From positions 1 through 36,922 of IMG/VR virus record IMGVR_UViG_3300047169_000100: a DNA stretch of 36,922 nt. One strand, written 5' to 3'. The position numbers and the translations under genes were made by a program. Numbering within the stretch: position 1 is the stretch's first letter; each line of letters starts with the position of its first letter. The stretch comes from a virus. The notes under the pieces are model-generated. The model saw nothing but the letters and a program-made list of their open reading frames with translations. It did no database searches and was not told the origin of the DNA. This document shows, one piece after another, positions 1,005 to 36,922 of the stretch.

Positions 1005-1475
1005 ATGCCGACGACGCGCACATCGGCGCAGGCTGACCTGCTGGACTGGACACCGCCGGAGGTGACGCAGGCGTTCCGGCCGGAGCGCGTGCGCGGGGCG
1101 ACGCTAGAGGCGCGGATCAAGAGGGCGATCAGCGAGACGCTGCGGGACGCTGACAGCCGCAACCTGCACCGCGAGGAAATCGCCCGGCGGATGAGCGATT
1201 ACCTCGGCGAGCGCGTGAGCGTGAACATGCTCAACGCCTATGCCTCGGTAGCGCGGACGGAGCATTCGATCGGGCTGCCGCGCGCGCTGGCGCTCGTCGC
1301 CGTCACGGAGGATCGGCGGCTGCTGGAGATGCTCGCCGCCGAGTGCGGCTGGGCGGTGATCGAGCGCAGGCACCTGCCGCTGATCGAGCTGGCAGCCGTG
1401 TCCGAAGCCGAGGAACGGCTGGCGAAACACAAGCGCAGCCTGCGGCGCCAGGCGCGGTCCGGAGGGGCGTTTTGA
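1005..1475 (+). CDS. Early-region protein upstream of the transposase, possible DNA-binding accessory
   Basis: A 156-residue, strongly charged protein starting 4 bases after the previous stop. Residues ~30-95 contain helical segments (LEARIKRAISETLRDAD, REEIARRMSDYLGERVSV) that could form a winged-helix or HTH unit; the C-terminus is basic (KHKRSLRRQARSG). Proteins of this size and place occur in other alphaproteobacterial Mu-like phages between regulator genes and the transposase, but I cannot name a family with confidence. Its stop overlaps the TTG start of the transposase, so the two are probably translationally coupled. Confidence 0.6.
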   Translation: MPTTRTSAQADLLDWTPPEVTQAFRPERVRGATLEARIKRAISETLRDADSRNLHREEIARRMSDYLGERVSVNMLNAYASVARTEHSIGLPRALALVAVTEDRRLLEMLAAECGWAVIERRHLPLIELAAVSEAEERLAKHKRSLRRQARSGGAF

Positions 1476-3421
1476 GCGCCGAAGCCAAACGCTGGTTTTC
1501 GCCCGCCGAGCTGGCCGACCTGAACCTGTCGGGCCTCCCCAGCACAAAGGCGGGGATGCACAAGCGGATCGCCGCTGAGGACTGGCAGCGCCCGGCCTGG
1601 GAAGGCCAGCGCTGGCGGGCGCGGGCGGATCGCGGCGGCGGGGTGGAATACCACCTCTCCGTCCTGCCGATGATGCTGCAGGCGCAGGTGCTGGCGCGGT
1701 ATCCCGAGGCGGCGCCGGATGACGCCGCGGTCGCCGAGATGGACAAGACGCTGGAAGCCCGCTGGCAGCAGGCCGGCGAGGCGCACCGCGAAGAGGCCGG
1801 GCGGCGCCTGGCCGTGCTGCTGGACTGGCGGGATCTGCAGCAGCGCAAGCCGCGCGTGGTCGCCGCCTACGCCGTGATGCAGGCGCACGCCATCAAATCG
1901 ATCCAGACCCTCTACGCCTGGGAACGGATGGTGGACGGCGTGCCGGAAGCGATGTGGCGCAAGGCGCTGCTGCCGCTGTCGAAGGCCTCGGCCCAGCCGA
2001 AGGAGATCGAGCCGGCGGCGTGGGACATGCTGCGCGCCGACTGGCTGCGCCCCGAACGGCCATCCTTCGAGGCGTGTTTCCGGCGCCTGCAGGCGGCAGC
2101 CGCGGCGAACGGCTGGATGCTGCCCTCGCCGCGCACGCTGCGGCGCCGGCTGGATGGGATCAAACGCACCACACGCGTTCTCGCCCGCGAGGGGCGCGAA
2201 GCGTTGATGGCCATGCTGCCCCCTCAGCAGCGCGATCGCGGCGTGTTCCATGCGCTGGAGGCGGTCAATGCGGACGGACACAAATGGGATGTGTTCGTCA
2301 AATGGCCGGGGGTGGAGAAGCCTGTCCGGCCGGTGATGATCGCCTTCCAGGATCTCTACTCCGGCAAAATCCTCAGCTGGCGGTTCGATCGGTCGGAGAA
2401 CCGGCACGCGGTGCGCCTGGCGTTCGCTGACCTGGTGGAAACCTACGGCATCCCGTCGGCCTGCTGGCTCGACAACGGCCGCAATTTCGCGAGCAAGTGG
2501 CTGACCGGCGGCACGCCGACGCGCTACCGCTTCAAGGTCCGCGACGATGAGCCGCAGGGCATCCTGCCGCTGCTTGGCGTGCGCGTGCACTGGACGACGC
2601 CCTATTCCGGCCAGTCAAAGCCGATCGAGCGGGCGTTCCGCGACATGGCGGGAGACGTCGCCAAGCACCCCGCCTTCGCCGGCGCCTACACCGGCAACAA
2701 GCCGGATGCGAAGCCGGAAAACTACATGTCCACCGCGGTGCCGCTGGACGTGTTCATCGCCACCGTCGACGCCGAGATCGCCGCCCACAACGCCCGCGTG
2801 GGCCGGCGCAGCACGGTCTGTCATGGCCGCTCTTTCGATGAGGCTTTCGCCGCCAGCTACGCCACCGCGCCGATCCGCAAGGCCCGCCGGTCGGACATCA
2901 ACCTGCTGCTGCTCGCCGCCGAGCAGATCAAGACGCGGGCGGACAACGCCATCCACTTCATGGGCAACCGTTTCTTCGCGGACTTCCTGCTGGAGCATCG
3001 CGGCCGGCCGCTGACCGTCCGCTTCGACCCGGACGATCTGCATGACGGCGGGCTGCACGTGTATCGCGCCGATGGCCCCTATCTCGGCCACGCGCCCTGC
3101 ATCGCCGCCGTTGGGTTCAACGACACCGAGGCCGGGCGGGATCTCGCGCGCCGCAAAAAGACGTTCCTGCGGGCGCAGCGCGAGCAGCTCGACGCCGAGC
3201 GCGCGCTGTCGCTCAAGCAGTTCGTGGAGATGCTGCCGAAGACCGAGGCCGCCACCCCGCCCGAGGCGCGCGTGGTCCGGCCGATGTTCGGCGGCGCGGC
3301 GGCGGCACTGAAGCCGATGCAGGAAGAGCAAACCCAAACCGAGATCGAGGTGATGGCCGCGATCCGGCGGATGACCGCCGGGCGGCTGCATGTCGTCCAG
3401 CCCGAGGGCAGCGACGACTGA
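1472..3421 (+). CDS. MuA-type DDE transposase
   Basis: Catalyses strand transfer in replicative transposition. From the chosen TTG start the protein has 649 residues, close to MuA (663). Residues ~5-35 (WFSPAELADLNLSGLPSTKA) match the MuA N-terminal winged helix that binds the internal enhancer. The catalytic triad is visible and spaced as in MuA: D268 in NADGHKWD, D334 in CWLDNGRNFASKW, E386 in GQSKPIERAFRD. The C-terminal ~100 residues are charged and would carry the MuB/ClpX contacts. Start choice: TTG at 1472 overlaps the previous TGA and has GGAGGGG at 1461-1467; the frame is open further upstream, but an earlier start would run far into the previous gene. Confidence 0.93.
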   Translation: MSAEAKRWFSPAELADLNLSGLPSTKAGMHKRIAAEDWQRPAWEGQRWRARADRGGGVEYHLSVLPMMLQAQVLARYPEAAPDDAAVAEMDKTLEARWQQAGEAHREEAGRRLAVLLDWRDLQQRKPRVVAAYAVMQAHAIKSIQTLYAWERMVDGVPEAMWRKALLPLSKASAQPKEIEPAAWDMLRADWLRPERPSFEACFRRLQAAAAANGWMLPSPRTLRRRLDGIKRTTRVLAREGREALMAMLPPQQRDRGVFHALEAVNADGHKWDVFVKWPGVEKPVRPVMIAFQDLYSGKILSWRFDRSENRHAVRLAFADLVETYGIPSACWLDNGRNFASKWLTGGTPTRYRFKVRDDEPQGILPLLGVRVHWTTPYSGQSKPIERAFRDMAGDVAKHPAFAGAYTGNKPDAKPENYMSTAVPLDVFIATVDAEIAAHNARVGRRSTVCHGRSFDEAFAASYATAPIRKARRSDINLLLLAAEQIKTRADNAIHFMGNRFFADFLLEHRGRPLTVRFDPDDLHDGGLHVYRADGPYLGHAPCIAAVGFNDTEAGRDLARRKKTFLRAQREQLDAERALSLKQFVEMLPKTEAATPPEARVVRPMFGGAAAALKPMQEEQTQTEIEVMAAIRRMTAGRLHVVQPEGSDD

Positions 3422-3425
3422 AGGA

Positions 3426-3455
3426 GGCGGCGGGGCGCTGGAACGCCCCACCGCC
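3426..3455 (+). other. Stem-loop between transposase and ATPase genes
   Basis: GGCGGCGGGGCG (3426-3437) pairs with CGCCCCACCGCC (3444-3455) with one mismatch around a CTGGAA loop. It sits in the only sizeable gap of the early operon and no T-run follows, so it is not a classic terminator. It may act as an attenuator or an RNA-processing or stability element setting the transposase:ATPase ratio (inference). Confidence 0.5.
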
Positions 3456-3488
3456 GGAAGGCACTTCACGCAACAACACGAGGATATC

Positions 3489-4442
3489 ATGAGCGAGCAA
3501 ATCGAACAGCTACCTGATGCGGGGGAGATCAGTCCGCTTCGCCTGCAGGTGCAGGAGCTGGTGAGGAAGGGCGTCAAGCAGACGGAGATCGCGCTCGGCG
3601 CCGGCCTCGCCTACGGCACCTTTACCTTGTGGTTTTCCGGCAAATACACCGGCAACAACGCGCGGATCGAGGACGCGGTTGAGCGCTATCTCGCCAGCCG
3701 CGCCGCGCGGGCGGCGTCGCAGCAGCTGCGGCCGGCGGCGCCTGGCTACTTCTCCACCCCGACTGCCGAAGCAATCATCGGCGTGCTGGAGCACGGGCAG
3801 GTGGCCGCGGATATCGTCGCGATCACCGCCGTGCCCGGCGTCGGCAAGACGGAGACGGTGAAGCACTACAGGGCGACGCGTCCAAATGTGTGGGTGGTCA
3901 CCGCGCAGCCGTTGACCAGCTCGCCGGGCAAGGCGGTGCGGGCGCTGGCCACCGCGATGGGGATCACCGAAAGCGGTGCTGCCGAGCGGGCCGCGGCGAT
4001 CATCGAGCGCGCCCGTGGCTCCGGCGGGCTGATCATCGTGGACGAGGCGCAGCACCTGCTGCCGACGGCGATCGACCAGCTGCGCTCGATGCACGACGCG
4101 GCGGGGATCGGGTTGGCGCTGGTGGGCAGCCCGTTGGTGCGGGAGCGGCTGGGCGGGACGAACCCCAACCTGGCGCAGCTCTACTCGCGCGTCGGCATGC
4201 GGCTGCGGCGGGACCGCCCGCTGGCCGGCGACGTCGCGGCGCTGATCGCAGCATGGGGGATCGAGGGCGACGCGGAGCGCAAGCTGGTGACCGCGATCGC
4301 CCGCAAGCCGGGCGCGCTGCGCGGGGCGACGAAGGTGCTGCAGATGGCCGGCATGCTGGCGCAGGGCGGGCCGATCGCCGCCGAGCACATCACCACGGCC
4401 TGGTCGCAGATCTCCGAACAGCCGATCGGGGAGGGCGCGTGA
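3489..4442 (+). CDS. MuB-type AAA+ ATPase (target-DNA selection)
   Basis: A 317-residue protein, near the 312 of MuB. MuB is an ATP-dependent DNA-binding protein that captures target DNA, activates the transposase and gives target immunity. The N-terminal ~70 residues hold an HTH-like unit (VKQTEIALGAGLAYGTFTLW). The Walker A motif VPGVGKTET lies at about 115-123 (K120), and Walker B LIIVDEAQHL has D185/E186. A sensor-1 type stretch (IGLALVGSPL) follows. The ATG is preceded by CACGAGG, giving a fair ribosome binding site. The stop overlaps the next start by one base (TGATG). Confidence 0.9.
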   Translation: MSEQIEQLPDAGEISPLRLQVQELVRKGVKQTEIALGAGLAYGTFTLWFSGKYTGNNARIEDAVERYLASRAARAASQQLRPAAPGYFSTPTAEAIIGVLEHGQVAADIVAITAVPGVGKTETVKHYRATRPNVWVVTAQPLTSSPGKAVRALATAMGITESGAAERAAAIIERARGSGGLIIVDEAQHLLPTAIDQLRSMHDAAGIGLALVGSPLVRERLGGTNPNLAQLYSRVGMRLRRDRPLAGDVAALIAAWGIEGDAERKLVTAIARKPGALRGATKVLQMAGMLAQGGPIAAEHITTAWSQISEQPIGEGA

Positions 4443-13389: not shown

Positions 13390-13742
13390 GCCTGCATGTG
13401 TTCCACATGGACGTGCCGGACAGCGCCGAGGACGACGCCGCGCGCGTCCAGGCGGCGATCGACGCGTCGTTGGCGGTGACGGTGCGGGCTCTGGCCGCGA
13501 TCGGCCGGCTCCGGAGCCTGTCGCACCGGCTGTTCGTGCTGGGGATGGAGGAGCGTATCGCAGGCGGCTTCGCCTTCACGGATCGCCACCGCCAGCACAT
13601 CGTGCGCCTGGCTTGGAGGTATCGCGAGCAGATGCCGGCGCACCTGCGGCCACCGACCAACCCGGACGATCCGCTCAGCCCGCACCGCCTGGTGCCGCCC
13701 GGCGACCGGCCCCCCTCACACCGGGAGAGATTGCATGGCTGA
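13386..13742 (+). CDS. Small protein between terminase and portal, unknown function
   Basis: A 118-residue protein whose ATG overlaps the terminase stop. Acidic N-terminus (DVPDSAEDDAARVQAAIDAS), then a helical basic region (LRSLSHRLFVLGMEERIAGG; DRHRQHIVRLAWRYREQMPA) and a Pro-rich tail. No family recognised; position suggests a packaging or portal-associated accessory. Confidence 0.6.
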   Translation: MSLHVFHMDVPDSAEDDAARVQAAIDASLAVTVRALAAIGRLRSLSHRLFVLGMEERIAGGFAFTDRHRQHIVRLAWRYREQMPAHLRPPTNPDDPLSPHRLVPPGDRPPSHRERLHG

Positions 13743-15318
13743 AGAAGTCCCGGCCGAGATCAAAGCCGAAGTCGCGATCGCGCAGACCGATCCGTTCCAG
13801 TGGCTCTATGGCGACCGCGTCCTCACCCAGGATGAGATCATCCGCACGCGCGGCGCCGGCAAAGGCCTGGCGCTGTATGACGAGCTGCTGCGAGACCCGC
13901 AGGTGGCCACCTGCCTGGACAAGCGCGTCTCCGCGCTGGCCGGGCGGGAATGGAAGGTCGAGGCCGGCGTGGAAGGAAACGCCCTGGCGCAGCAGGCGGC
14001 GGACCTGGCGGCCGCGGCGTTCAACGGCATGCGTTTCACGCAAGGCACACGCAAGATGCTGCGGGCGCTGCTCAGCGGCGTGTCGGTCGGCGAGGTGATG
14101 TGGGTGATCCGCGGAAACACCCTGATGCCCCGCGTGCTGCTGAGCCGTAACCCGCGCAGGTTCACCTTCACCGTGGTGAAGACGCCGGATGAACAGGGGC
14201 AGGAGGAGAGCGGCGGCACGTCCCTGGATCTGCGGATGTTGACCCGCACGTCGCCGATTGACGGCATCCCCATCCCCGACCGAAAATTCGTGGTGCACCG
14301 GTTCGGCGACAGCTACGAGAACCCGTGGGGGCTGGGCCTGGGGCATCGGCTGTTCTGGCCGGTGTTCTTCAAGCGCCAGGGCATTGGCTTCTGGATGTCC
14401 GGCTTGGACAAATTCAGCCAGCCGACGGCGCTGGGGCACTATCCGGTGGGCACGACGGAGGATCAGCAGCGCCTGCTGGTGGAGGCGCTCACCGCGATCA
14501 GCCGCGAGGCGGGTGTGGCGATCCCCGAGGGCATGGCGATCGAGCTGCTGGAGGCCAAGCGCAGCGGCACGTTCGACGCCTATGAGAGCCTCGCCATGTA
14601 TATGGACGGGGAGATCACCAAGGCGATCCTTGGCGAGACACTGACCACCCAGGGCGGCAGCTCTGGCGGCAACCGGGCGCTCGGCCAGGTGCACAACGAG
14701 GTGCGGCTGGAGCTGACCAAGGCGGACGCGGACGATCTCTCCGACACGCTCAACAGCAGCCTGGTGCGCTGGATCGTCGATCTCAACCTACCGGGCTACG
14801 AGGCTTCCGGCCTGCCTTACCCCGCGATCATGTGGGATGTCGCTGTGCCGGACGATCTGCTGACCCGCGCGCAGCGGGACGTGCAGATCGTCGCACTCGG
14901 CTACAAGCCGACGCCGGAATACATCGCCGCCACCTACGGCGAGGGCTGGGTGCCGGCGACGCCGGCGCCGGCCGCGCCGCCGAGCCAGGATGCGCTGGAG
15001 GCGCTGTTCGCCGAGGCTGGCAAGGCTGCGCGCAAGGCGCCGGCGGTGCCGGCAAGCCCGAACGATGCGGCGGATGATCTGACGGCGCAGGCCGGGCCGC
15101 TCTCGGCGCATCCGGTGGGCGCCTGGATCGACCAGCTCGGCGCGCTGGTCGAGCATGCCGAGAGCATGCAGGACATCGCGAATGGGCTGCTGGCGCTGTA
15201 TCCGAAACTGACCACGCAGGATCTCGCGGGGCTGATCGGCCAGGCGCTGGCGGTGGGCGATCTCACCGGGCGGCTGGATCTGCAGAACAGGATTGTGCCG
15301 CCGGGCGGCGATGTCTGA
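13735..15318 (+). CDS. DUF935 portal protein (Mu gp29-like)
   Basis: A 527-residue portal of the DUF935 family, forming the dodecameric ring through which DNA enters and leaves the head. Family segments: DKRVSALAGREWKVEAGVEG near the start, VLLSRNPRRFTF, FVVHRFGDSYENPWGLGLGH, RLFWPVFFKRQGIGFW, KFSQPTALG, EITKAILGETLTTQGGSSGG (about 298-317), and RWIVDLNLPGYE. The C-terminal ~100 residues are Ala/Pro-rich and then helical. Length is close to Mu gp29. Its last bases overlap the MuF gene start by 8. Confidence 0.9.
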   Translation: MAEEVPAEIKAEVAIAQTDPFQWLYGDRVLTQDEIIRTRGAGKGLALYDELLRDPQVATCLDKRVSALAGREWKVEAGVEGNALAQQAADLAAAAFNGMRFTQGTRKMLRALLSGVSVGEVMWVIRGNTLMPRVLLSRNPRRFTFTVVKTPDEQGQEESGGTSLDLRMLTRTSPIDGIPIPDRKFVVHRFGDSYENPWGLGLGHRLFWPVFFKRQGIGFWMSGLDKFSQPTALGHYPVGTTEDQQRLLVEALTAISREAGVAIPEGMAIELLEAKRSGTFDAYESLAMYMDGEITKAILGETLTTQGGSSGGNRALGQVHNEVRLELTKADADDLSDTLNSSLVRWIVDLNLPGYEASGLPYPAIMWDVAVPDDLLTRAQRDVQIVALGYKPTPEYIAATYGEGWVPATPAPAAPPSQDALEALFAEAGKAARKAPAVPASPNDAADDLTAQAGPLSAHPVGAWIDQLGALVEHAESMQDIANGLLALYPKLTTQDLAGLIGQALAVGDLTGRLDLQNRIVPPGGDV

Positions 15319-16642
15319 CGCACCTGCCCCGGTTTCCGGTACCAGCCTTCCCTTCACCGAGGCGATAGACTTCCTGCGCGCCAAGCTCGGCACGCAGCTG
15401 CCGAGCACGACGTGGACGGACACGTATGGCCGGGTGAACAGCGTCGGCTTCGCAGTCGCCGGCGCGTGGAAGGATGCGCTGCTGTCGGATCTCGGGGCGG
15501 CGGTTCTGGACCATCTGGAAAACGGCAAGACGGTGCAGCAGTTCCAGCCGGTGTTCGAGGCAATCGCGGCGAAGCACCAGTGGGCCTACAAGGGCAAGCC
15601 GGCCTGGCGCGCGGCCATCATCCTCAACACCAACATCCGCAGCGCCTACGCCGCCGGGAAGTGGCAGCAGATCCAGCGGGTGAAGCAAGACCGCCCATAT
15701 ATCCGCTACGTCGCTGTGCTCGATGCTCGCACCCGCCCGGCGCACCGGGCATGGAACGGGACCATCCTGCCGGTGGAGGACAAATGGTGGCAGACGCATT
15801 TCCCGCCGAATGGCTGGAACTGCCGCTGCACGGTGATGAGCCTCTCGGATCGCGACCTGGTGCGGAAGGGCTGGAAAGTCGACGCCTCGCCGGCCGGGCC
15901 TGGGCTGGTGCCGACGGTGGTCAACGACCGCACTGGCGAGGGGCTGAAGGCGGTGCCCTACGGGATCGACCCGAGCTTCGAGCACAACCCCGGCGCGGTG
16001 CTGGAGGCGCCCTTCGTGCCGCAGCTCGCCGACGATCTCGCGCAGGGCTTCGTGGCGCCGATCGCGCAGGATGCCGCGGCGCGGTTCCTTGCCGCGCGCC
16101 AGAGCCTAGCGCCGCCGATCGCGCCCGAGGATCTGCCGCCGCTGCCCGCCCCCCGCGCGTTCGATCCTGCGCGGATGCTACCAGCCGATGTTTCGGACAC
16201 CGATGCGGTCAACGCCTTCCTCGCCGAATTCGGCGTGGCGCCGGGTGGCGCTGCCATACATATCGATCAAGCCGGCGGCGCACTGGGGATCAGCGGCGAC
16301 CTGTTCCGCGACGCCTCCGGCTTCCTCAAGCTGGATAAGGGCGGGCGCAAACCCTATCTCCGCGTGCTGGCCGACGTGCTGAAGGACCCGGACGAAATTT
16401 GGGTGTCGCTGGAGGTGCTGAAGGACGGAACGGTGGTGGTCCGCCGCCGCGCGCTGGGGCTTTTCACGCTGGACGGCCAGCCGGCAGGCGGGCTGGCGGC
16501 GTTCGAGTGGGGCAGTGACAAGACGTGGGGTGGGCTGACCATCTTCCCGCCTGCTGCGACCGCGGCGAAGCCCAACCCCGCCGACTATCTCGATCTGCGG
16601 GGCCGCTTCGGGGTGAGGCTGTATGCGCGAGGGGAAGGGTAA
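15311..16642 (+). CDS. MuF-like head morphogenesis protein fused to a PBECR2-type nuclease domain
   Basis: A 443-residue protein. The MuF domain (about 60-185) shows LNTNIRSAYAAGKWQQ, YVAVLDARTRPAH (133-145), the W-rich segment ending THFPPNGWNCRCTVMSLSDRD with C171-x-C173. After a Pro/Ala linker (about 235-275) comes a second domain (about 285-443) with RVLADVLKDPDEIWVSLE and a VVVRRRAL strand, resembling PBECR2, one of the BECR-fold nuclease domains found at the C-termini of MuF proteins and thought to act as toxins injected with the phage DNA. The domain assignment rests on pattern memory. The start overlaps the portal stop. Confidence 0.8.
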   Translation: MSDAPAPVSGTSLPFTEAIDFLRAKLGTQLPSTTWTDTYGRVNSVGFAVAGAWKDALLSDLGAAVLDHLENGKTVQQFQPVFEAIAAKHQWAYKGKPAWRAAIILNTNIRSAYAAGKWQQIQRVKQDRPYIRYVAVLDARTRPAHRAWNGTILPVEDKWWQTHFPPNGWNCRCTVMSLSDRDLVRKGWKVDASPAGPGLVPTVVNDRTGEGLKAVPYGIDPSFEHNPGAVLEAPFVPQLADDLAQGFVAPIAQDAAARFLAARQSLAPPIAPEDLPPLPAPRAFDPARMLPADVSDTDAVNAFLAEFGVAPGGAAIHIDQAGGALGISGDLFRDASGFLKLDKGGRKPYLRVLADVLKDPDEIWVSLEVLKDGTVVVRRRALGLFTLDGQPAGGLAAFEWGSDKTWGGLTIFPPAATAAKPNPADYLDLRGRFGVRLYARGEG

Positions 16643-21893: not shown

Positions 21894-22069
21894 CCAAAAA
21901 AGGAGGCTCCTACCGCGTGGGGCCGGACGGCACCGAAGTGCTGGAGGAGGCCACCGCGCCGTGGACACCGCCTGCCGCGCCGGCCGCTGCCATCCCGGCC
22001 GATCCGGCCGTAGCCACGCCGGCGCCCCTGCCGCCGCCGGCACCTGAACCCGAGGAGGAGCACGCCTGA
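21890..22069 (+). CDS. Small Pro/Ala-rich protein before the tail tube gene
   Basis: A 59-residue protein, start overlapping the previous stop and stop overlapping the next start (TGATG). After MTKKGGSYRVGPDGTEVLEE it is almost entirely Pro/Ala with an acidic end. Small proteins of this type are common at this place in phage tail operons; no function is known. Confidence 0.55.
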   Translation: MTKKGGSYRVGPDGTEVLEEATAPWTPPAAPAAAIPADPAVATPAPLPPPAPEPEEEHA

Positions 22070-23001
22070 TGACCGTCTATGCGCATAACGTGGTGATGCT
22101 CGCGAAGACCGAGGCGGCCTACAACGATTTCGTCACGGTGCCGACATCGAACATCCTGCTGGCCAGCAGCTTCACCTACCTGCCGCTGGAGGCCAACACC
22201 GCCAACCGCAAGCTGCTGCGTCAGTTCATGGGCAACGAGGATCACGCCCTGGCCGTGCCGCGCTCGCGCATGCAGGCGGAGCTGGTGATGGCGGGCTCCG
22301 GCACCAAGGATCAGCCGCCGAGATGGCGCCATCTCATGCGCGCCTGCGGCATGAGGGAGACCATCAACGCCGGCACATCAGTGACCTACGCGCCGGTGTC
22401 CACCGGCTTCGAGAGCCTCGCCACGGCCTACTACCTCGACAACATCCTGCACCTGATGGGCGGCGCGCGCGGCACATGGTCGGTCGATTTCAAGGCGGGC
22501 GAAATGCCGATGCTCAAGACGGACATCCAGGGCCTGCGGCACAACTCGACGATCGATACGCACAACTTCACCCCGGACTATTCCGGCTGGGGCGACCTCG
22601 CGCCGTTCAACTCGGTGTTCACCTCCGCGCTGACCTTCTTCGGCGTCACCCCCGCGTTCTCGGCGTTCAACTACACGCACAACAACACCATCGCCGTACG
22701 CGACATCCCCAACCACAAGGAGGTGATGATCACCGGGCGGGCGCCGACGGCGAGCATCACCCTGGAACTGCCGTCCACGCTCACGATGGATTTCGTCGAC
22801 GCCGCGATGCGCGGCTTGAAGGGATCGCTGAGTTTTCAGCAGGGCCAATTCGATGGCAACGAAATCGTCGTCTACCTGCCGAACGTCCAGCTGATGCCGG
22901 ACCCGAAATATTCGGTCGAGGATGACGTCGCCATGGTGACGTTCAACCTCAAGCCGCTGCCCACGGTGGGCGACGACGAAATCCTGATCACGGTTCGCTG
23001 A
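22069..23001 (+). CDS. Tail tube protein
   Basis: A 310-residue protein of the siphovirus tail-tube type. Segments such as VVMLAKTEAAYNDFVTVPTS and ANTANRKLLRQFMGNEDHAL match the opening of these proteins, and the later part is beta-rich with EVMITGRAPTASITLELPST. It polymerises around the tape measure to form the tail. No sheath gene is present anywhere in the window, so the tail is non-contractile, unlike Mu. Confidence 0.8.
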   Translation: MTVYAHNVVMLAKTEAAYNDFVTVPTSNILLASSFTYLPLEANTANRKLLRQFMGNEDHALAVPRSRMQAELVMAGSGTKDQPPRWRHLMRACGMRETINAGTSVTYAPVSTGFESLATAYYLDNILHLMGGARGTWSVDFKAGEMPMLKTDIQGLRHNSTIDTHNFTPDYSGWGDLAPFNSVFTSALTFFGVTPAFSAFNYTHNNTIAVRDIPNHKEVMITGRAPTASITLELPSTLTMDFVDAAMRGLKGSLSFQQGQFDGNEIVVYLPNVQLMPDPKYSVEDDVAMVTFNLKPLPTVGDDEILITVR

Positions 23002-23016
23002 GAGGAATTTCAGAGC

Positions 23017-23328
23017 ATGCTCAAGATGGCCAAAGACATGTCGTGGATCTGGCCCGTGCCGGTCCGCTACCCCACAGATGACGGCTTCAAGGACGGCGCG
23101 TTTCGCGCCCGCTTCAAGCTGCTGCCCAAGGAGCGCCGTGAGGCGTTGGAGGCGGAGCCGAACCCGGTGCAAGCCATCCTGGCCGAGGCGGTGGTGGAGC
23201 TGTTCGACCTGGTCCAGGACGATGATGTGCCAATGCCGCTGGCAACCGCGCTGGGCATTCCGTTCCTCAGCCTGGCGCTGTGGTCGGCCTATATCGGCAG
23301 CACCACGGTCGCCCCCCTAAAAAACTGA
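23017..23328 (+). CDS. Tail assembly chaperone, short (unshifted) form
   Basis: A 103-residue product in the position of lambda gpG, with AGAGGAA ahead of the ATG. It opens with a beta-like segment (WPVPVRYPTDDGFKDGAFRA) and continues with helices (LLPKERREALEAEP; AEAVVELFDLV). The frame ends in CTA AAA AAC TGA, placing a slippery heptamer right before the stop. A fraction of ribosomes should shift to -1 there and make the longer protein. Confidence 0.8.
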   Translation: MLKMAKDMSWIWPVPVRYPTDDGFKDGAFRARFKLLPKERREALEAEPNPVQAILAEAVVELFDLVQDDDVPMPLATALGIPFLSLALWSAYIGSTTVAPLKN

Positions 23329-23372
23329 GAGCCGCCGCGCAGGCATGGGTGCGGGGCGGTGCGCGCGGCGGC
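23319..23372 (+). promoter_or_regulatory. Programmed -1 ribosomal frameshift signal
   Basis: A AAA AAC (23319-23325) stands in the right phase for a -1 slip, directly before the 0-frame TGA. Five bases later GCCGCCGCGC (23331-23340) pairs perfectly with GCGCGGCGGC (23363-23372) around a 22-base loop. Slippery site, 5-base spacer and stem are all as in proven -1 sites. Confidence 0.85.
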
Positions 23373-23687
23373 GATGACGGGATCGACACGCAGGTCAAAG
23401 CCCTGGGCCTGCCGCCGGAAATCGCGGCCAGGCTGCGCGCCGAGGCCCGCGGCGCGGCGCCGGAGGATGTCGAAGTGCTGCCCGACAACTGGCCGGCTGT
23501 GCGGCTGTTCTGCGCCATGGGCACGCAATGGCGCAGGGCCGGAATGAGTGGCACCGCCACAGGCTTTGACTACGGCGCGTTGCCGATCGTCGCCGGCGCG
23601 TTGGGGCTGGGCCTGGACGAGGATCTGCTGGGCCGGCTCCAGGTGATGGAAGGCGAGGCCCTGAAACTCATGGCGGCGAAGAGGTAG
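23325..23687 (+). CDS. Tail assembly chaperone, -1 frameshift extension (DUF1799-like)
   Basis: The -1 frame, read from CTG at 23325, continues the chaperone for 120 residues to a stop at 23687, giving a fusion of 223 residues in all (23017-23325 joined to 23325-23687). The extension contains DTQVKALGLPPEIAARLRAE and VEVLPDNWPAVRLFCAMGTQ, the W-rich pattern of DUF1799 proteins, known as the T part of G/GT chaperones in other siphophages. It has no good ribosome binding site of its own near 23280, which also argues for frameshifting. Confidence 0.8.
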   Translation: MRAAAQAWVRGGARGGDDGIDTQVKALGLPPEIAARLRAEARGAAPEDVEVLPDNWPAVRLFCAMGTQWRRAGMSGTATGFDYGALPIVAGALGLGLDEDLLGRLQVMEGEALKLMAAKR

Positions 23688-23688
23688 A

Positions 23689-26619
23689 ATGTCCGATACG
23701 ATCAACCTCGGCCTGAAAATCACCGCCGAGGCCGGCCAGATGAAGGCCACGGTGGTTGGCGCGCAGAATGACCTGCGCGGGCTTGGCACGGCGGCGCAGG
23801 CCGGCGCCGGCCAGGCGACGACGGCGTTGCAGGGCGTGGCCAACGCGCAGACCGCGGTGAGCACCGGCGCCGCCACGGCGAGCAAGGCGACGAAGGTTGC
23901 GGCCGACACGCACAAGGAGATGGCGGCCTCGGCGGGCAACACGGCGTTCGCCATGCGCCAGCTCAACGTGCAGTTCACCCAGGCCGCTGCCGGCATCCTG
24001 AGCGGCCAGCCGGTGTGGATGACGCTGATCCAGCAGGGCCACCAGGTGGCCGACGTGGCCGAGAGCACCGGCATCGGCCTCGGCGTCGTGGACCTCGCGG
24101 CGCAGAAGGTGAAGACGGCCTTTGCGGCGCTGCTCTCGCCGATCGGGCTGGAGATCGCGGGCTTTGCGGCGTTGGGTGTGGCCGCCTATGCGGTGACGGC
24201 GCGGGTCATTGAGCTGGAAGCTGGGCAGCGCGCATTCGGCGTCGCGCTCACCGGCACCAACCGCAGCTCGGTCGCCTCTGGTCAGCAGCTGCAGGACTAT
24301 GCGCGCAGCCTGCAGCGCGTCGGGTTGGATGCGGCGGACGCGCAAGCTGAGATCCTCGCCCTGGCGCGGTCGCAGGGGCTGAGCGGCGTTGACCTTCAAA
24401 ACACCATCAAGCTTGCCGGCGATCTGGCCTCGGCGCTGGGCATCGATGTGCCCACCGCCCTTGGCAAGCTGAAGGAGGCATTCACTGGCGGCTACGACGG
24501 CGCCCGAAAGCTCGACGACGTCGTGAACGTGCTGAGCGCCTCCGAGCGCGATCAGGTCCGCGCCATGAAGGAGAGCGGCGACCAGGTCGGCGCCAACAAG
24601 CTCATCTTCGAGGCGCTGCAACGGCAGATCACCGGGCTGAACGATCAGTCGCTGACGCAGATGAGCCGGGCTTTGCGGGATCTGGCGGCCGATTGGAATG
24701 GGTTTATGGACGCGGTGGCCAAGAGCGGCGCCGTGATCGCGGCCGTGCAGACCTTGCAGCTGGCCGTGAAGGCGCTCGCTGCCCTGGTGCCTTCGGGCGG
24801 CGGCTCTGGCACGGTGGTCGGTCAGCTGAACGCCCAGATCGCGCGGCTTGAGGCTCAGCTTGCGGATCGGGACAGCTACGGTCAGCCAACTGTGAGTGGC
24901 GCGGCAGCGGCGGCGTTGCAGCAGCAGATCGCCAACCTGAAGGCGCAGGCCATGCTGGCGGGCGGCGCTATCACCGGCGATGCCGCGAATGCGCCTGCCA
25001 CACCCACAACGTCCACGACGGGTGCGGCGGCCGCGTCGACCGCCGAGCAGCAACGCCAGGCCAAGGTGGTCTCCGACGCCACGAAGGCATGGGATGATCA
25101 GCGCCGCATCCTGGCGGCCTCGCTGCCGGATCGCGCGCGTGTTCGCGCCGAGATCGAGGCGGAGAACGCCATCTCCGGCCTGAATGTCGACGCCAAGGCG
25201 GCCGAGGAGATCAAGCGCCGCGCCGTCACCACGGCGATCGCCACTGAGGCCGATGCCCGCGCGCAGGAGCTGCTGGGGATCGACCTTGAGATCACCGCGG
25301 CGAAGGACCTGGTGGCCGCGACCACCGGCGGGCGCGTGGCGATGCTGCAAGCCACCGCCGCGGCACAGGCGCACGCGGAGGCCGCCACGAAAGCAGGGGT
25401 CAGTGAAGAGGCGCTGATGCATGCCCTGCTGAACCGTGCGGCGGCACAGGCGGCGAGCCAGGCGGCGAGCCAGGTGATCGACCTGGAAGAGGCGGCACTC
25501 GCGGCGAAGGATTTGGCGGACGCGACGGCGAAGGGCTTCGAGGCGGAGCACGCGGCCGAGCTGGTGGAGAAGGTGCGCCAGCTCACCGTCGGCCTCCGCG
25601 CGGCGGCGGCGGCGGCGACCGACCCTGCGCTGAAGGCGCTGATCAATGGCGAGGTGGATCGCATCTCGGATGCGGTCAATGCCGGCGATGCCGCGCAGCA
25701 GCACCGCGCCGTCGCCCAGCTCGGCAACCAGCAAGGCCAGGATCTCGACACGCTGCGGCTGCGCCAGCAGCTGCTCGGCGCGAACGCGCAGACGGTTGCG
25801 ACCGAGACCGCGGATCTGCGGGCGCGGCAGACGCTGGAACGCCAGGGCATCTCGACGACGACCGAGCAGTCGCTGGCCTATCGCGACCAGGCCAAGCAGA
25901 TCGCGCTCACCACCCAGCAGGTGCAGCAGCAGGAGGACTCCTGGGCGGCGGTGGGGCAGGCAGGCAGCCAGGCGTTCCAGCAGGTCGGGCAGCAGATCGC
26001 GCAGGACATCGCGCAGGGGCAGCTGGGCTTCCAGACGCTGGAGAAGGTCGGCACCTCCGTCGCGCAGACGCTGATCCAAAAATTTGCCGAGCTGGCGATC
26101 GTCAATCCGCTGCTCAATTCGCTCGGGCTCTCCGGCGCCAATCTGCTGCCGTCACTGGGTAGCCTGATCTCCGGCGGTGGTGGTGGGGTCTCGGCGGCGG
26201 TGCCGTCGTCGCAAGGCGCGTTGACCAGCGCGATCTGGCACACCGGCGGGGTGATCGGCGCGCCGAGCGCCACCCGCGATGTCCCGATGTCCATCTTCGA
26301 GGGCGCCCCGCGGTTTCACACCGGCGGGCTGATCGGCTCGGACGAAGTGCCGATCATCGCGCGCAAGGGCGAGGGCGTGTTCACGCCGGAACAGATGTCG
26401 GCGATGGGGCCGTCTGGGGGCATCGTTATCAACGCCAATTTCAACGGCAATGTCGGCTCGGCCAATGATCGCGCGTTGATGGCAGCACAGCTGCATGCGG
26501 TGGTGGACGACGCCGTCAACCGCCGCACGCCTGGCATCGCGGCGCTGGCGCAGGCCGGCGTGATCGCCCAGGCCGGCCGGGGCGGGAAATACGCGCAGGC
26601 CGTCGGGAGGCGTTCATGA
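23689..26619 (+). CDS. Tail length tape measure protein
   Basis: A 976-residue protein, the longest in the window, starting after GAGG. The N-terminus (INLGLKITAEAGQMKATVVG) and AMRQLNVQFTQAAAGILSGQ then PVWMTLIQQGHQVADVAEST match the lambda-type tape measure family. The centre is Ala/Gln-rich coiled coil with a hydrophobic segment near 145-170. The end carries the family hallmark, two HTGG repeats (HTGGVIGAPSATRDVPMSIF; FHTGGLIGSDEVPIIARKGE). It sets tail length and is expelled with the DNA. At about 0.15 nm per residue the tail would be near 145 nm (inference). Confidence 0.92.
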   Translation: MSDTINLGLKITAEAGQMKATVVGAQNDLRGLGTAAQAGAGQATTALQGVANAQTAVSTGAATASKATKVAADTHKEMAASAGNTAFAMRQLNVQFTQAAAGILSGQPVWMTLIQQGHQVADVAESTGIGLGVVDLAAQKVKTAFAALLSPIGLEIAGFAALGVAAYAVTARVIELEAGQRAFGVALTGTNRSSVASGQQLQDYARSLQRVGLDAADAQAEILALARSQGLSGVDLQNTIKLAGDLASALGIDVPTALGKLKEAFTGGYDGARKLDDVVNVLSASERDQVRAMKESGDQVGANKLIFEALQRQITGLNDQSLTQMSRALRDLAADWNGFMDAVAKSGAVIAAVQTLQLAVKALAALVPSGGGSGTVVGQLNAQIARLEAQLADRDSYGQPTVSGAAAAALQQQIANLKAQAMLAGGAITGDAANAPATPTTSTTGAAAASTAEQQRQAKVVSDATKAWDDQRRILAASLPDRARVRAEIEAENAISGLNVDAKAAEEIKRRAVTTAIATEADARAQELLGIDLEITAAKDLVAATTGGRVAMLQATAAAQAHAEAATKAGVSEEALMHALLNRAAAQAASQAASQVIDLEEAALAAKDLADATAKGFEAEHAAELVEKVRQLTVGLRAAAAAATDPALKALINGEVDRISDAVNAGDAAQQHRAVAQLGNQQGQDLDTLRLRQQLLGANAQTVATETADLRARQTLERQGISTTTEQSLAYRDQAKQIALTTQQVQQQEDSWAAVGQAGSQAFQQVGQQIAQDIAQGQLGFQTLEKVGTSVAQTLIQKFAELAIVNPLLNSLGLSGANLLPSLGSLISGGGGGVSAAVPSSQGALTSAIWHTGGVIGAPSATRDVPMSIFEGAPRFHTGGLIGSDEVPIIARKGEGVFTPEQMSAMGPSGGIVINANFNGNVGSANDRALMAAQLHAVVDDAVNRRTPGIAALAQAGVIAQAGRGGKYAQAVGRRS

Positions 26620-35014: not shown

Positions 35015-35833
35015 ATGACCAAAACGTTGACGCCGATCGCGCCGGTGTTCCCCGTCGCCCCCTATCTCGGGGGCAAGAAGCGCCTGGCAGCGCGCATCAT
35101 CGCCCGCCTGCAGTTGACGCCGCATGAGTGCTATGTCGAGCCTTTTGTGGGGATGGGCGGGATATTCCTACGCAGGCCCTTCCGGGCCTATTCGGAAGTG
35201 ATCAACGACGCCAGCGGCGACGTGGCCAACTTCTTCAGGGTGCTGCAATGGCACTACGAGGCTTTCCTGGACATGTTGCGCTGGCAGCTGACATCCAGAG
35301 AGCAATTTGACCTGCTGAAGGCGGCGCAACCCGAAACGCTGACCGATCTCCAGCGCGCCGCGCGCTTCCTGTATCTCCAGCGCACTGCCTATGGCGGTAA
35401 GGTCGAGGCGCGGAGCTTTGGCGTCTCGACGGCCATGCCGGCCCGGTTCGACGTGGGGAAACTGGCGCCGCAGCTGCTCGCCGTGCATGACCGGCTCGCC
35501 AGCGTGGTGATCGAGCGCCTTCCGTGGCACGACCTGCTGCCCCGATACGACCGGCCGGGCACGCTGTTCTACTGCGACCCGCCCTATTACCTCAGCGAGG
35601 CAGACTACGGCCGCCGCCTGTTCACCCGCGACGATTTCGCCCGCCTCGCCGAGGCTCTGGCCAGCCTCAAGGGCGCATTCCTGCTCAGTCTGAACGATCA
35701 CCCAGACATGCGCCGGTGCTTCAGCGCCTTCGACATCCAACCCATCGCCACCACCTACTCGATCGCCGGGGCTGGTAGGACGGGACGGGTTGTTGAATTG
35801 TTGATCTCCAAGGGGGTCAAAAGAGGCCCTTGA
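35015..35833 (+). CDS. DNA adenine N6-methyltransferase (D12/Dam class)
   Basis: A 272-residue enzyme that methylates adenine with S-adenosylmethionine. Visible motifs: PYLGGKKRLAARI (16-28) with the D12-type GGK, EPFVGMGG (42-49, the FxGxG SAM-binding loop), and YCDPPYYLSE (186-195, DPPY catalytic motif). Length is typical for Dam-like enzymes. It is the last gene before the right end, the place of the DNA-modification gene mom in Mu, and would similarly protect phage DNA from restriction (inference). It starts 111 bases after the esterase; a competing ATG at 35002 is in another frame. Confidence 0.9.
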   Translation: MTKTLTPIAPVFPVAPYLGGKKRLAARIIARLQLTPHECYVEPFVGMGGIFLRRPFRAYSEVINDASGDVANFFRVLQWHYEAFLDMLRWQLTSREQFDLLKAAQPETLTDLQRAARFLYLQRTAYGGKVEARSFGVSTAMPARFDVGKLAPQLLAVHDRLASVVIERLPWHDLLPRYDRPGTLFYCDPPYYLSEADYGRRLFTRDDFARLAEALASLKGAFLLSLNDHPDMRRCFSAFDIQPIATTYSIAGAGRTGRVVELLISKGVKRGP

Positions 35834-35865: not shown

Positions 35866-35905
35866 AACCGATGTCAGAATTTCCAGCAACCGATGGCCCG
35901 CTACA
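35866..35905. other. Candidate right end of the phage with transposase-binding repeats
   Basis: AACCGATG occurs at 35866-35873 and 35888-35895, exactly 22 bases apart, the spacing of the R1 and R2 transposase sites in Mu. Ten bases further the sequence reads CTACA (35901-35905), i.e. TGTAG when read inward; Mu also starts TGTA, and this phage class ends in 5'-TG...CA-3'. The GC-rich coding style stops here and AT-rich DNA begins. The left end is not in the window, so the target duplication cannot be checked. Confidence 0.6.
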
Positions 35906-35929
35906 GCAGGAAGGCAAGCAGTTATTTTT

Positions 35930-35956
35930 TGAAAAAAAAGAACCAAAAAAACTTTT
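35930..35956 (+). repeat. Host A/T-tract repeat, copy 1
   Basis: A 27-base element of the form T-G-A8-GAACC-A7-C-T4. An inverted copy with one A fewer lies at 36780-36805. Repeats of this type flank genes on both sides here and look like a dispersed host element, perhaps acting as a bidirectional terminator. Confidence 0.6.
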
Positions 35957-36020
35957 TCCCATCTGCTGCAATACCCCGCTCAGGGCTTCCTTCCTTCGTG
36001 CGCCGCGGATGCCCAAGTAC

Positions 36021-36115
36021 GAAATTTTTACCACAGAGACACAGAGACACGGAGAAGAAAGTAAGAAAAACAATATCTTCCGCTTTCTTCTCCGTGTCTC
36101 TGTGGTAAAAATTTC
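36021..36115. repeat. Large host inverted repeat with internal 8-bp duplication
   Basis: The left arm 36021-36061 and right arm 36083-36115 are complementary over 33 bases (core TTACCACAGAGACAC...). The left arm has 8 extra bases because AGAGACAC is doubled. The spacer is 21 bases. Elements of this kind are common in bacterial intergenic regions and are known for giving false protein predictions; no function is known. Confidence 0.75.
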
Positions 36116-36779
36116 TTTCTTGCTTTCCCGCCGCAAAAACGGCTTTGAGCTAACGCCACCGCGCATAACAGCGCTGCAAAAATAGGAATATTAAAAGAGA
36201 ACAAAAAGGGGGAACTACAGCGCCTTCACCTCCAAAAACCAGGAAAGGCCAACCCCGTGTCCCGCACGCAACCCCCAAAAGCAGAAACGAACGACCCGCT
36301 CGTCCGTAGCATGCGGGAGACGTGCGCCCATTTCACGGACGCGGCCGACGATGCCAACTTCCTGGCCCGCCCCTTCCTCGTCCTCCTCGCCGAGCTGATC
36401 TGCCGCATCTTCGGCAAGATCGAGGATATCGTCCTGCTCTGGCGCGCGGGCCTCATCCCGCCGCCCGCCCCGAAGCCGACAGGCACGCCGCGTGCCCGGA
36501 CATCCAGGAACCGCCGAACCGCACGCAAAGCCCGCGCCAGCCGCCGCACGCCCGGACTCCGTCCGATCAACGGCCAGCGTCGGCAGGTCCGCGCCCGCAC
36601 CTACCCGATCACGATTGAGGGAACCCGCATCCAGGCCGGCAAACCCGTCCCAGCCCGCCGCATCGACCGCTATCCCAAGCCCAAAACCGCTCAAACCACC
36701 GCAAACCCAGTCCGCATCGGCACGCCTATTTTATTACGTTATCATAACGAATACCCAAAACCCACTCACCCAAGGCAGC

Positions 36780-36805
36780 AAAAGTTTTTTTGGTTCTTTT
36801 TTTCA
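36780..36805 (-). repeat. Host A/T-tract repeat, copy 2 (inverted)
   Basis: Inverted copy of 35930-35956 with seven A instead of eight in the first tract. It ends exactly at the IS boundary: copy 1 continues into TTTTTT beyond this point whereas here GGGCCTG follows, so the IS appears to have inserted within the repeat. Confidence 0.6.
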
Positions 36806-36922
36806 GGGCCTGTTTGGAATTGTTCATCGGGAATTGATGAAGGCTGCGGCGAGGTAGATCAAGGCGGTGAAGGATCGATCTGTTTTTTCGCCGCGCATGG
36901 CAATCTTTTTAAATTCCTTGAG
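36806..36922 (-). mobile_element. IS5-family insertion sequence, one end, cut by the window
   Basis: The element starts at GGGCCTGTTTGGAATTG (probable terminal inverted repeat) and encodes a transposase end on the minus strand. The preceding TCA fits the TNA target type of some IS5 subgroups. The other end is outside the window. Confidence 0.7.
36824..36922 (-). CDS. IS5-family transposase, C-terminal end (partial)
   Basis: The last 32 residues of a DDE transposase, reading LKEFKKIAMRGEKTDRSF and then TALIYLAAAFINSR before TGA. The RIA/KIAMRGEKTD...AAAFINSR ending is typical of IS5-family (IS427/IS1031-like) transposases. The catalytic part lies beyond the window. It stops 18 bases inside the element end. 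Confidence 0.75.
   Translation of the reverse strand, partial: LKEFKKIAMRGEKTDRSFTALIYLAAAFINSR

Follow-up and report, generated by a model that had tools for sequence, protein, structure and literature searches.

Organization of the locus

The window, by which we mean the whole stretch of 36,922 nucleotides analysed here, derives from a Mu-like transposable phage. It encodes a MuA transposase (1343-3421), MuB (3390-4442), a Mu portal protein (13735-15318) and a homologue of the Mu F protein (15293-16642), and combines these genes with a long-tail module of the non-contractile type that includes a tape measure protein of the TMP_2 family. The Mu F-like protein carries at its C terminus a PBECR2 (Barnase/EndoU/ColicinE5-like nuclease) domain (PF18810, E 7e-21). 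Near the right end of the window lies a gene for a D12-class adenine DNA methyltransferase (35015-35833), and the region beside it (~35900-36922) differs from the remainder of this GC-rich window in having several A/T runs.

The locus under study is located on the plus strand of the tail module. The gene directly upstream (22069-23001, 310 aa) matches phrog_290, termed 'minor tail protein' (E 8e-19); based on its position between the tail terminator and the chaperone we read it as the major tail tube protein. It is followed by a short frame of 103 codons (23017-23328), hereafter G, that ends in ...PLKN-TGA and is assigned as a tail assembly chaperone from its phrog_569 match, the families of its relatives and its predicted fold. 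The -1 frame overlaps the end of G and contains no stop between 23226 and 23684. Its putative translated segment (T part, 23319-23687) holds a DUF1799 domain at 23463-23669, which is recognized by PF08809 (E 5e-16; 59.1 bits, above the Pfam gathering cutoff of 26), phrog_680 (E 1e-23) and phrog_17368. The last of these is a 213-aa profile to which G parts align, as do T parts at the end of the profile; a profile spanning both is as expected for a family of GT fusions. One base past the stop of the -1 frame begins the tape measure protein gene (23689-26619, 976 aa; PF06791 TMP_2, E 5e-26). The first-pass annotation was right in that the -1 frame leads into a DUF1799-like frame and in that the two frames sit between tube and tape measure in the order known from lambda G/GT.

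Slippery heptamer, stop codon and hairpin

The ORF 23017-23328 terminates with CTA AAA AAC TGA. Direct reading thus places the slippery heptamer A_AAA_AAC (23319-23325) in the X_XXY_YYZ phase that tandem slippage requires, with the 0-frame stop TGA (23326-23328) adjoining it. On synonymous codon resampling, 0.05% of trials placed a strong in-phase heptamer right where G ends, and 0.13% placed one at any position of the 100-nt overlap. The motif AAAAAAC occurs four times in the window compared with 0.54 expected occurrences, and the copy at 23319-23325 is the sole one within the tail genes.

After a spacer of 5 nt follows a putative stimulatory hairpin (23331-23372, plus strand). Its GC stem comprises 10 perfect base pairs between GCCGCCGCGC (23331-23340) and GCGCGGCGGC (23363-23372), and the loop of 22 nt holds a further helix of 4 bp (23343-23346/23359-23362). 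Of all window positions, 0.1% have a perfect 10-bp stem at a spacer of 4-9. Folding of 42 nt at the site yields -29.8 kcal/mol, a value that 0.08% of positions match or surpass in stability. Heptamer, stop and stem at a spacer of 5 nt are together far beyond chance in the window, and these elements are those that the first-pass annotation had described. The hairpin stands out from shuffled sequences, with z -2.4 for 75 nt counted from the stop and z -3.0 for 55 nt; over longer windows of 81 or 125 nt, the stability of the local RNA does not exceed that of its shuffles (z ~0). As these wider windows are not unusually structured, the structural signal is the hairpin alone. A match to the ribosomal frameshift site family RF01076 of Rfam, at 23319-23396 and thus starting exactly at the heptamer, was discarded as probably due to chance, as it is sub-threshold (18.2 bits versus 70; E 0.91).

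The stem was also analysed in relatives, as had been recommended, using 34 representatives less than 70% identical in the second frame. The hairpin signal has its maximum directly behind the heptamer, where the 50 nt give a mean folding z of -1.75 (p 2e-6), compared with 0 to -0.7 at other offsets. Helices of at least 8 bp at spacers of 3-9 are present in 56% of these representatives versus 6% of background positions. Some relatives (L035, L156 and L118) show no strong simple hairpin.

Conservation of the site in relatives

Scanning IMG/VR, GTDB genomes and GenBank phages yielded 162 domain-bearing sequences, with much redundancy. In part of the second scan the search pattern contained the KK residues encoded by the heptamer, and the relatives so found were counted separately; the unbiased set consists of 85 distinct relatives identified without heptamer-coded residues. 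An in-phase A_AAA_AAC or G_GGA_AAC is retained in 81 of these 85. All 25 relatives found only via the KK-containing pattern keep the heptamer as well, a figure that counts less. Counting redundant loci, 155 sequences have a site, and in 143 of them the 0-frame stop directly follows the heptamer (+0). The group with G_GGA_AAC encodes the heptamer glycine by GGA in 74 of 74 cases, versus 24 of 407 glycine codons upstream. The first-pass view that the signal is unusually complete for a GC-rich genome proved overstated: the complete signal is the norm in the family at any GC content.

Loss of the heptamer in relatives that keep both frames had been named as evidence that would refute frameshifting, a test that the relatives withstand. 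The exceptions in the unbiased set are three relatives with five As instead of six (L023, L024 and L033) and one without a heptamer at the usual place (L022). Compared with its 96%-identical relative, L033 displays many single-base indels, mostly in homopolymers, throughout its 9 kb, and L024 contains a second frame-breaking indel just upstream of the site; because of these other indels, the shortened runs in L033 and L024 are most likely sequencing errors, and that in L023 is likely one too. In L022, a T_TTT_TTG in phase 24 nt upstream of the 0-frame stop (L022:4824-4857) suggests, on sequence grounds, that the slip site has been relocated.

In HK639, S-CBS1 and VarioGold, the site reads AAAAAAC and the stop follows at +0. 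Database records give the half added by frameshifting as a gene of its own in S-CBS1 (L034), VarioGold (L037), Silvergun (L165) and CUB19 (L166), and omit it in HK639 (L036). In L026-L030, open frames of 428-506 codons gave the impression that tube and G are fused. This turned out to be an artefact of open frames in GC-rich DNA; the tube gene ends in another frame, as checked for L027.

Junction and possible dual coding

Slippage of both tRNAs after decoding of AAC would resume translation at 23325 with CTG (Leu), giving the predicted fusion junction ...PLKN-LRAAAQAW... and adding 120 residues to a predicted GT fusion of 223 aa. Trypsin would leave only NLR across this junction, whereas chymotrypsin is predicted to release spanning peptides such as IGSTTVAPLKNLRAAAQAW. 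The first -1-frame residue after the slip is Leu in 33 of the 34 representatives, also where the stop lies farther away (L026 and L057). The residues right after the slip, L..AA.AW, are conserved, and conservation of the second frame begins at the first post-slip codon.

A CTN codon in the -1 frame demands a C as the last base of the heptamer, and where this codon is CTG or CTA and the next base is A, the 0 frame reads TGA or TAA. The uniform AAC-stop pattern may consequently reflect, in large part, dual coding imposed by the invariant Leu codon CTN. We also considered that heptamers always ending in AAC, with a stop almost always touching them, represent a stop-coupled subclass in its own right, whose GT:G ratio would be kept low by slow termination at the adjacent stop while AAC occupies the A site; this idea appears rather doubtful to us, and the plainer cause, the invariant CTN of the -1 frame, fits the evidence for the pattern too. 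The dual-coding reading of AAC is of some interest, since in E. coli shifting is weaker at A_AAA_AAC than at A_AAA_AAG (PMC5009743).

Alternative explanations

The DUF1799 frame could instead be a separate gene that starts internally and is translationally coupled to the stop of G, as several GenBank records have it. T genes are annotated as separate in S-CBS1, PseuP_222, VarioGold, CUB19 and Silvergun, the window's second frame has GTG codons at 23280 and 23349, and a start with a Shine-Dalgarno (SD) sequence exists in some relatives (L031, L034 and L144). However, these two GTG codons are the only ones upstream of the domain in the window and neither has an SD match, while the conserved L..AA.AW block precedes the candidate start at 23349. 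Across diverse relatives, the position of candidate second-frame starts is not conserved, most are devoid of an SD sequence, and two representatives lack any start ahead of the domain. The independent start that the first-pass annotation had regarded as contrary evidence is thus not a conserved feature. In addition, a separate gene provides no reason for the conserved in-phase heptamer or for the exclusive use of GGA in its glycine-encoding variant, and we consider this arrangement very improbable.

Both remaining alternatives concern the run of six As itself. RNA polymerase might slip on it, so that the fusion would be translated from an edited mRNA. A-runs can be prone to polymerase slippage, yet six As are short for such slippage, and many relatives carry GGGAAAC, with only three As, where it is unexpected; moreover, the hairpin is conserved at ribosomal spacing. 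Transcriptional slippage is therefore exceedingly unlikely. We assign an equally negligible probability to the idea that one real fused ORF was split when the A-run was misread or misassembled. The window consists of one viral contig, and relatives such as L033 do show homopolymer errors, but the two-frame layout with its stop right after the heptamer recurs in more than 100 distinct loci, including those of isolate phages.

Probable identity of G as a tail assembly chaperone

The window's G matches no Pfam chaperone family above cutoff, and Phage_TAC_4 (PF08748) gives no direct match. Used alone as a single-sequence query, the G frame retrieved no confirmed relatives in IMG/VR and, among phages, S-CBS1 weakly. 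Aligned G relatives belong to phrog_569 in 24 of 24 cases, to the tail assembly chaperone family phrog_313 in 10 of 24 and to Phage_TAC_4 in 8 of 24, and profile comparison between the subgroup of the window's G and the TAC_4-type subgroup returned a probability of 91.8%. In the predicted fold of G (AlphaFold, pLDDT 92), the chaperones YqbN and HK97 2OB9 rank first and second among 983 chains, albeit at low Z, and matches of G to predicted structures include viral 'tape measure chaperones'. Sequence searches of the PDB with the G and T profiles gave nothing meaningful, and Foldseek found no significant match in the PDB for either model. From family membership we infer that the G family comprises tail assembly chaperones, with binding of the tape measure protein suggested by homology only.

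Model of G and GT synthesis

From the signals observed in the sequence and their conservation, together with the domains and gene order, we conclude that the site almost certainly directs programmed -1 ribosomal frameshifting as in the lambda G/GT system of tail assembly chaperones. The slip itself and its rate are inferred. Most ribosomes would read 23017-23325 and halt at TGA, releasing the 103-aa chaperone G. The hairpin 5 nt downstream would make a minority pause on the heptamer, whereupon both tRNAs may slip back by one base, from AAA-AAC to AAA-AAA. Translation would then continue from 23325 with Leu and generate the predicted 223-aa GT fusion carrying DUF1799. By analogy with lambda, the chaperone function in this phage would consist in G coating the tape measure protein while the T domain recruits tube subunits; again as in lambda, the low GT:G ratio would matter and neither G nor GT would remain in the virion.

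A classic recoding signal is hereby confirmed in a Mu-like phage with a tail module of the non-contractile type, the mechanism itself being long known. Throughout the family, DUF1799 emerges as the half of a tail chaperone that frameshifting adds, and not as an independent gene. As the second frame appears in many records as a hypothetical gene or a tape measure gene in its own right, or is absent from them, the practical value of this result is better annotation.

Comparison with known systems

Frameshifting between G and T has been described as widely conserved (PMC5009743), and a rate of 6-7% was measured for an HK97-like chaperone cluster (PMC3711429). With lambda G/GT (Levin 1993; Xu, Hendrix and Duda 2004, cited in PMC5009743), the window shares the order tube, G, GT and tape measure, an in-phase heptamer near the end of G, a short and an extended chaperone, and the -1 direction. 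The lambda heptamer is G_GGA_AAG in contrast to A_AAA_AAC, and in the window no base separates the heptamer from the stop. Here the T part belongs to the DUF1799 family, and no match to the Pfam models of lambda's own gpG/gpT chaperone families was obtained. The tail assembly chaperone of HK97 (PDB 2OB9) and the prophage protein YqbN (PDB 3KLU) are the top two of 983 chains for the G model, although their Z values of 3.6 and 4.2 are low and there is no significant sequence match.

The Acinetobacter phage vB_AbaS_Loki has AAAAAAC directly beside the stop of gp12, and a gp12/gp13 tail chaperone fusion was proposed (PMC5313236). The motif at the stop is thus the same, whereas phage type and host differ; in the parts of the Loki report available to us, no hairpin analysis was found. 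A parallel is also offered by CPT_Stevie15/16 of the T1/TLS-like Citrobacter phage Stevie (KM236241). Stevie is a low-GC member of the Drexlerviridae, and its proteins have diverged from those of the window (~35% identity in the second frame), but it combines the same heptamer with a stop at +0 and a DUF1799-like second frame, and its GenBank record gives a joined CDS, 'tape measure chaperone', at such a site.
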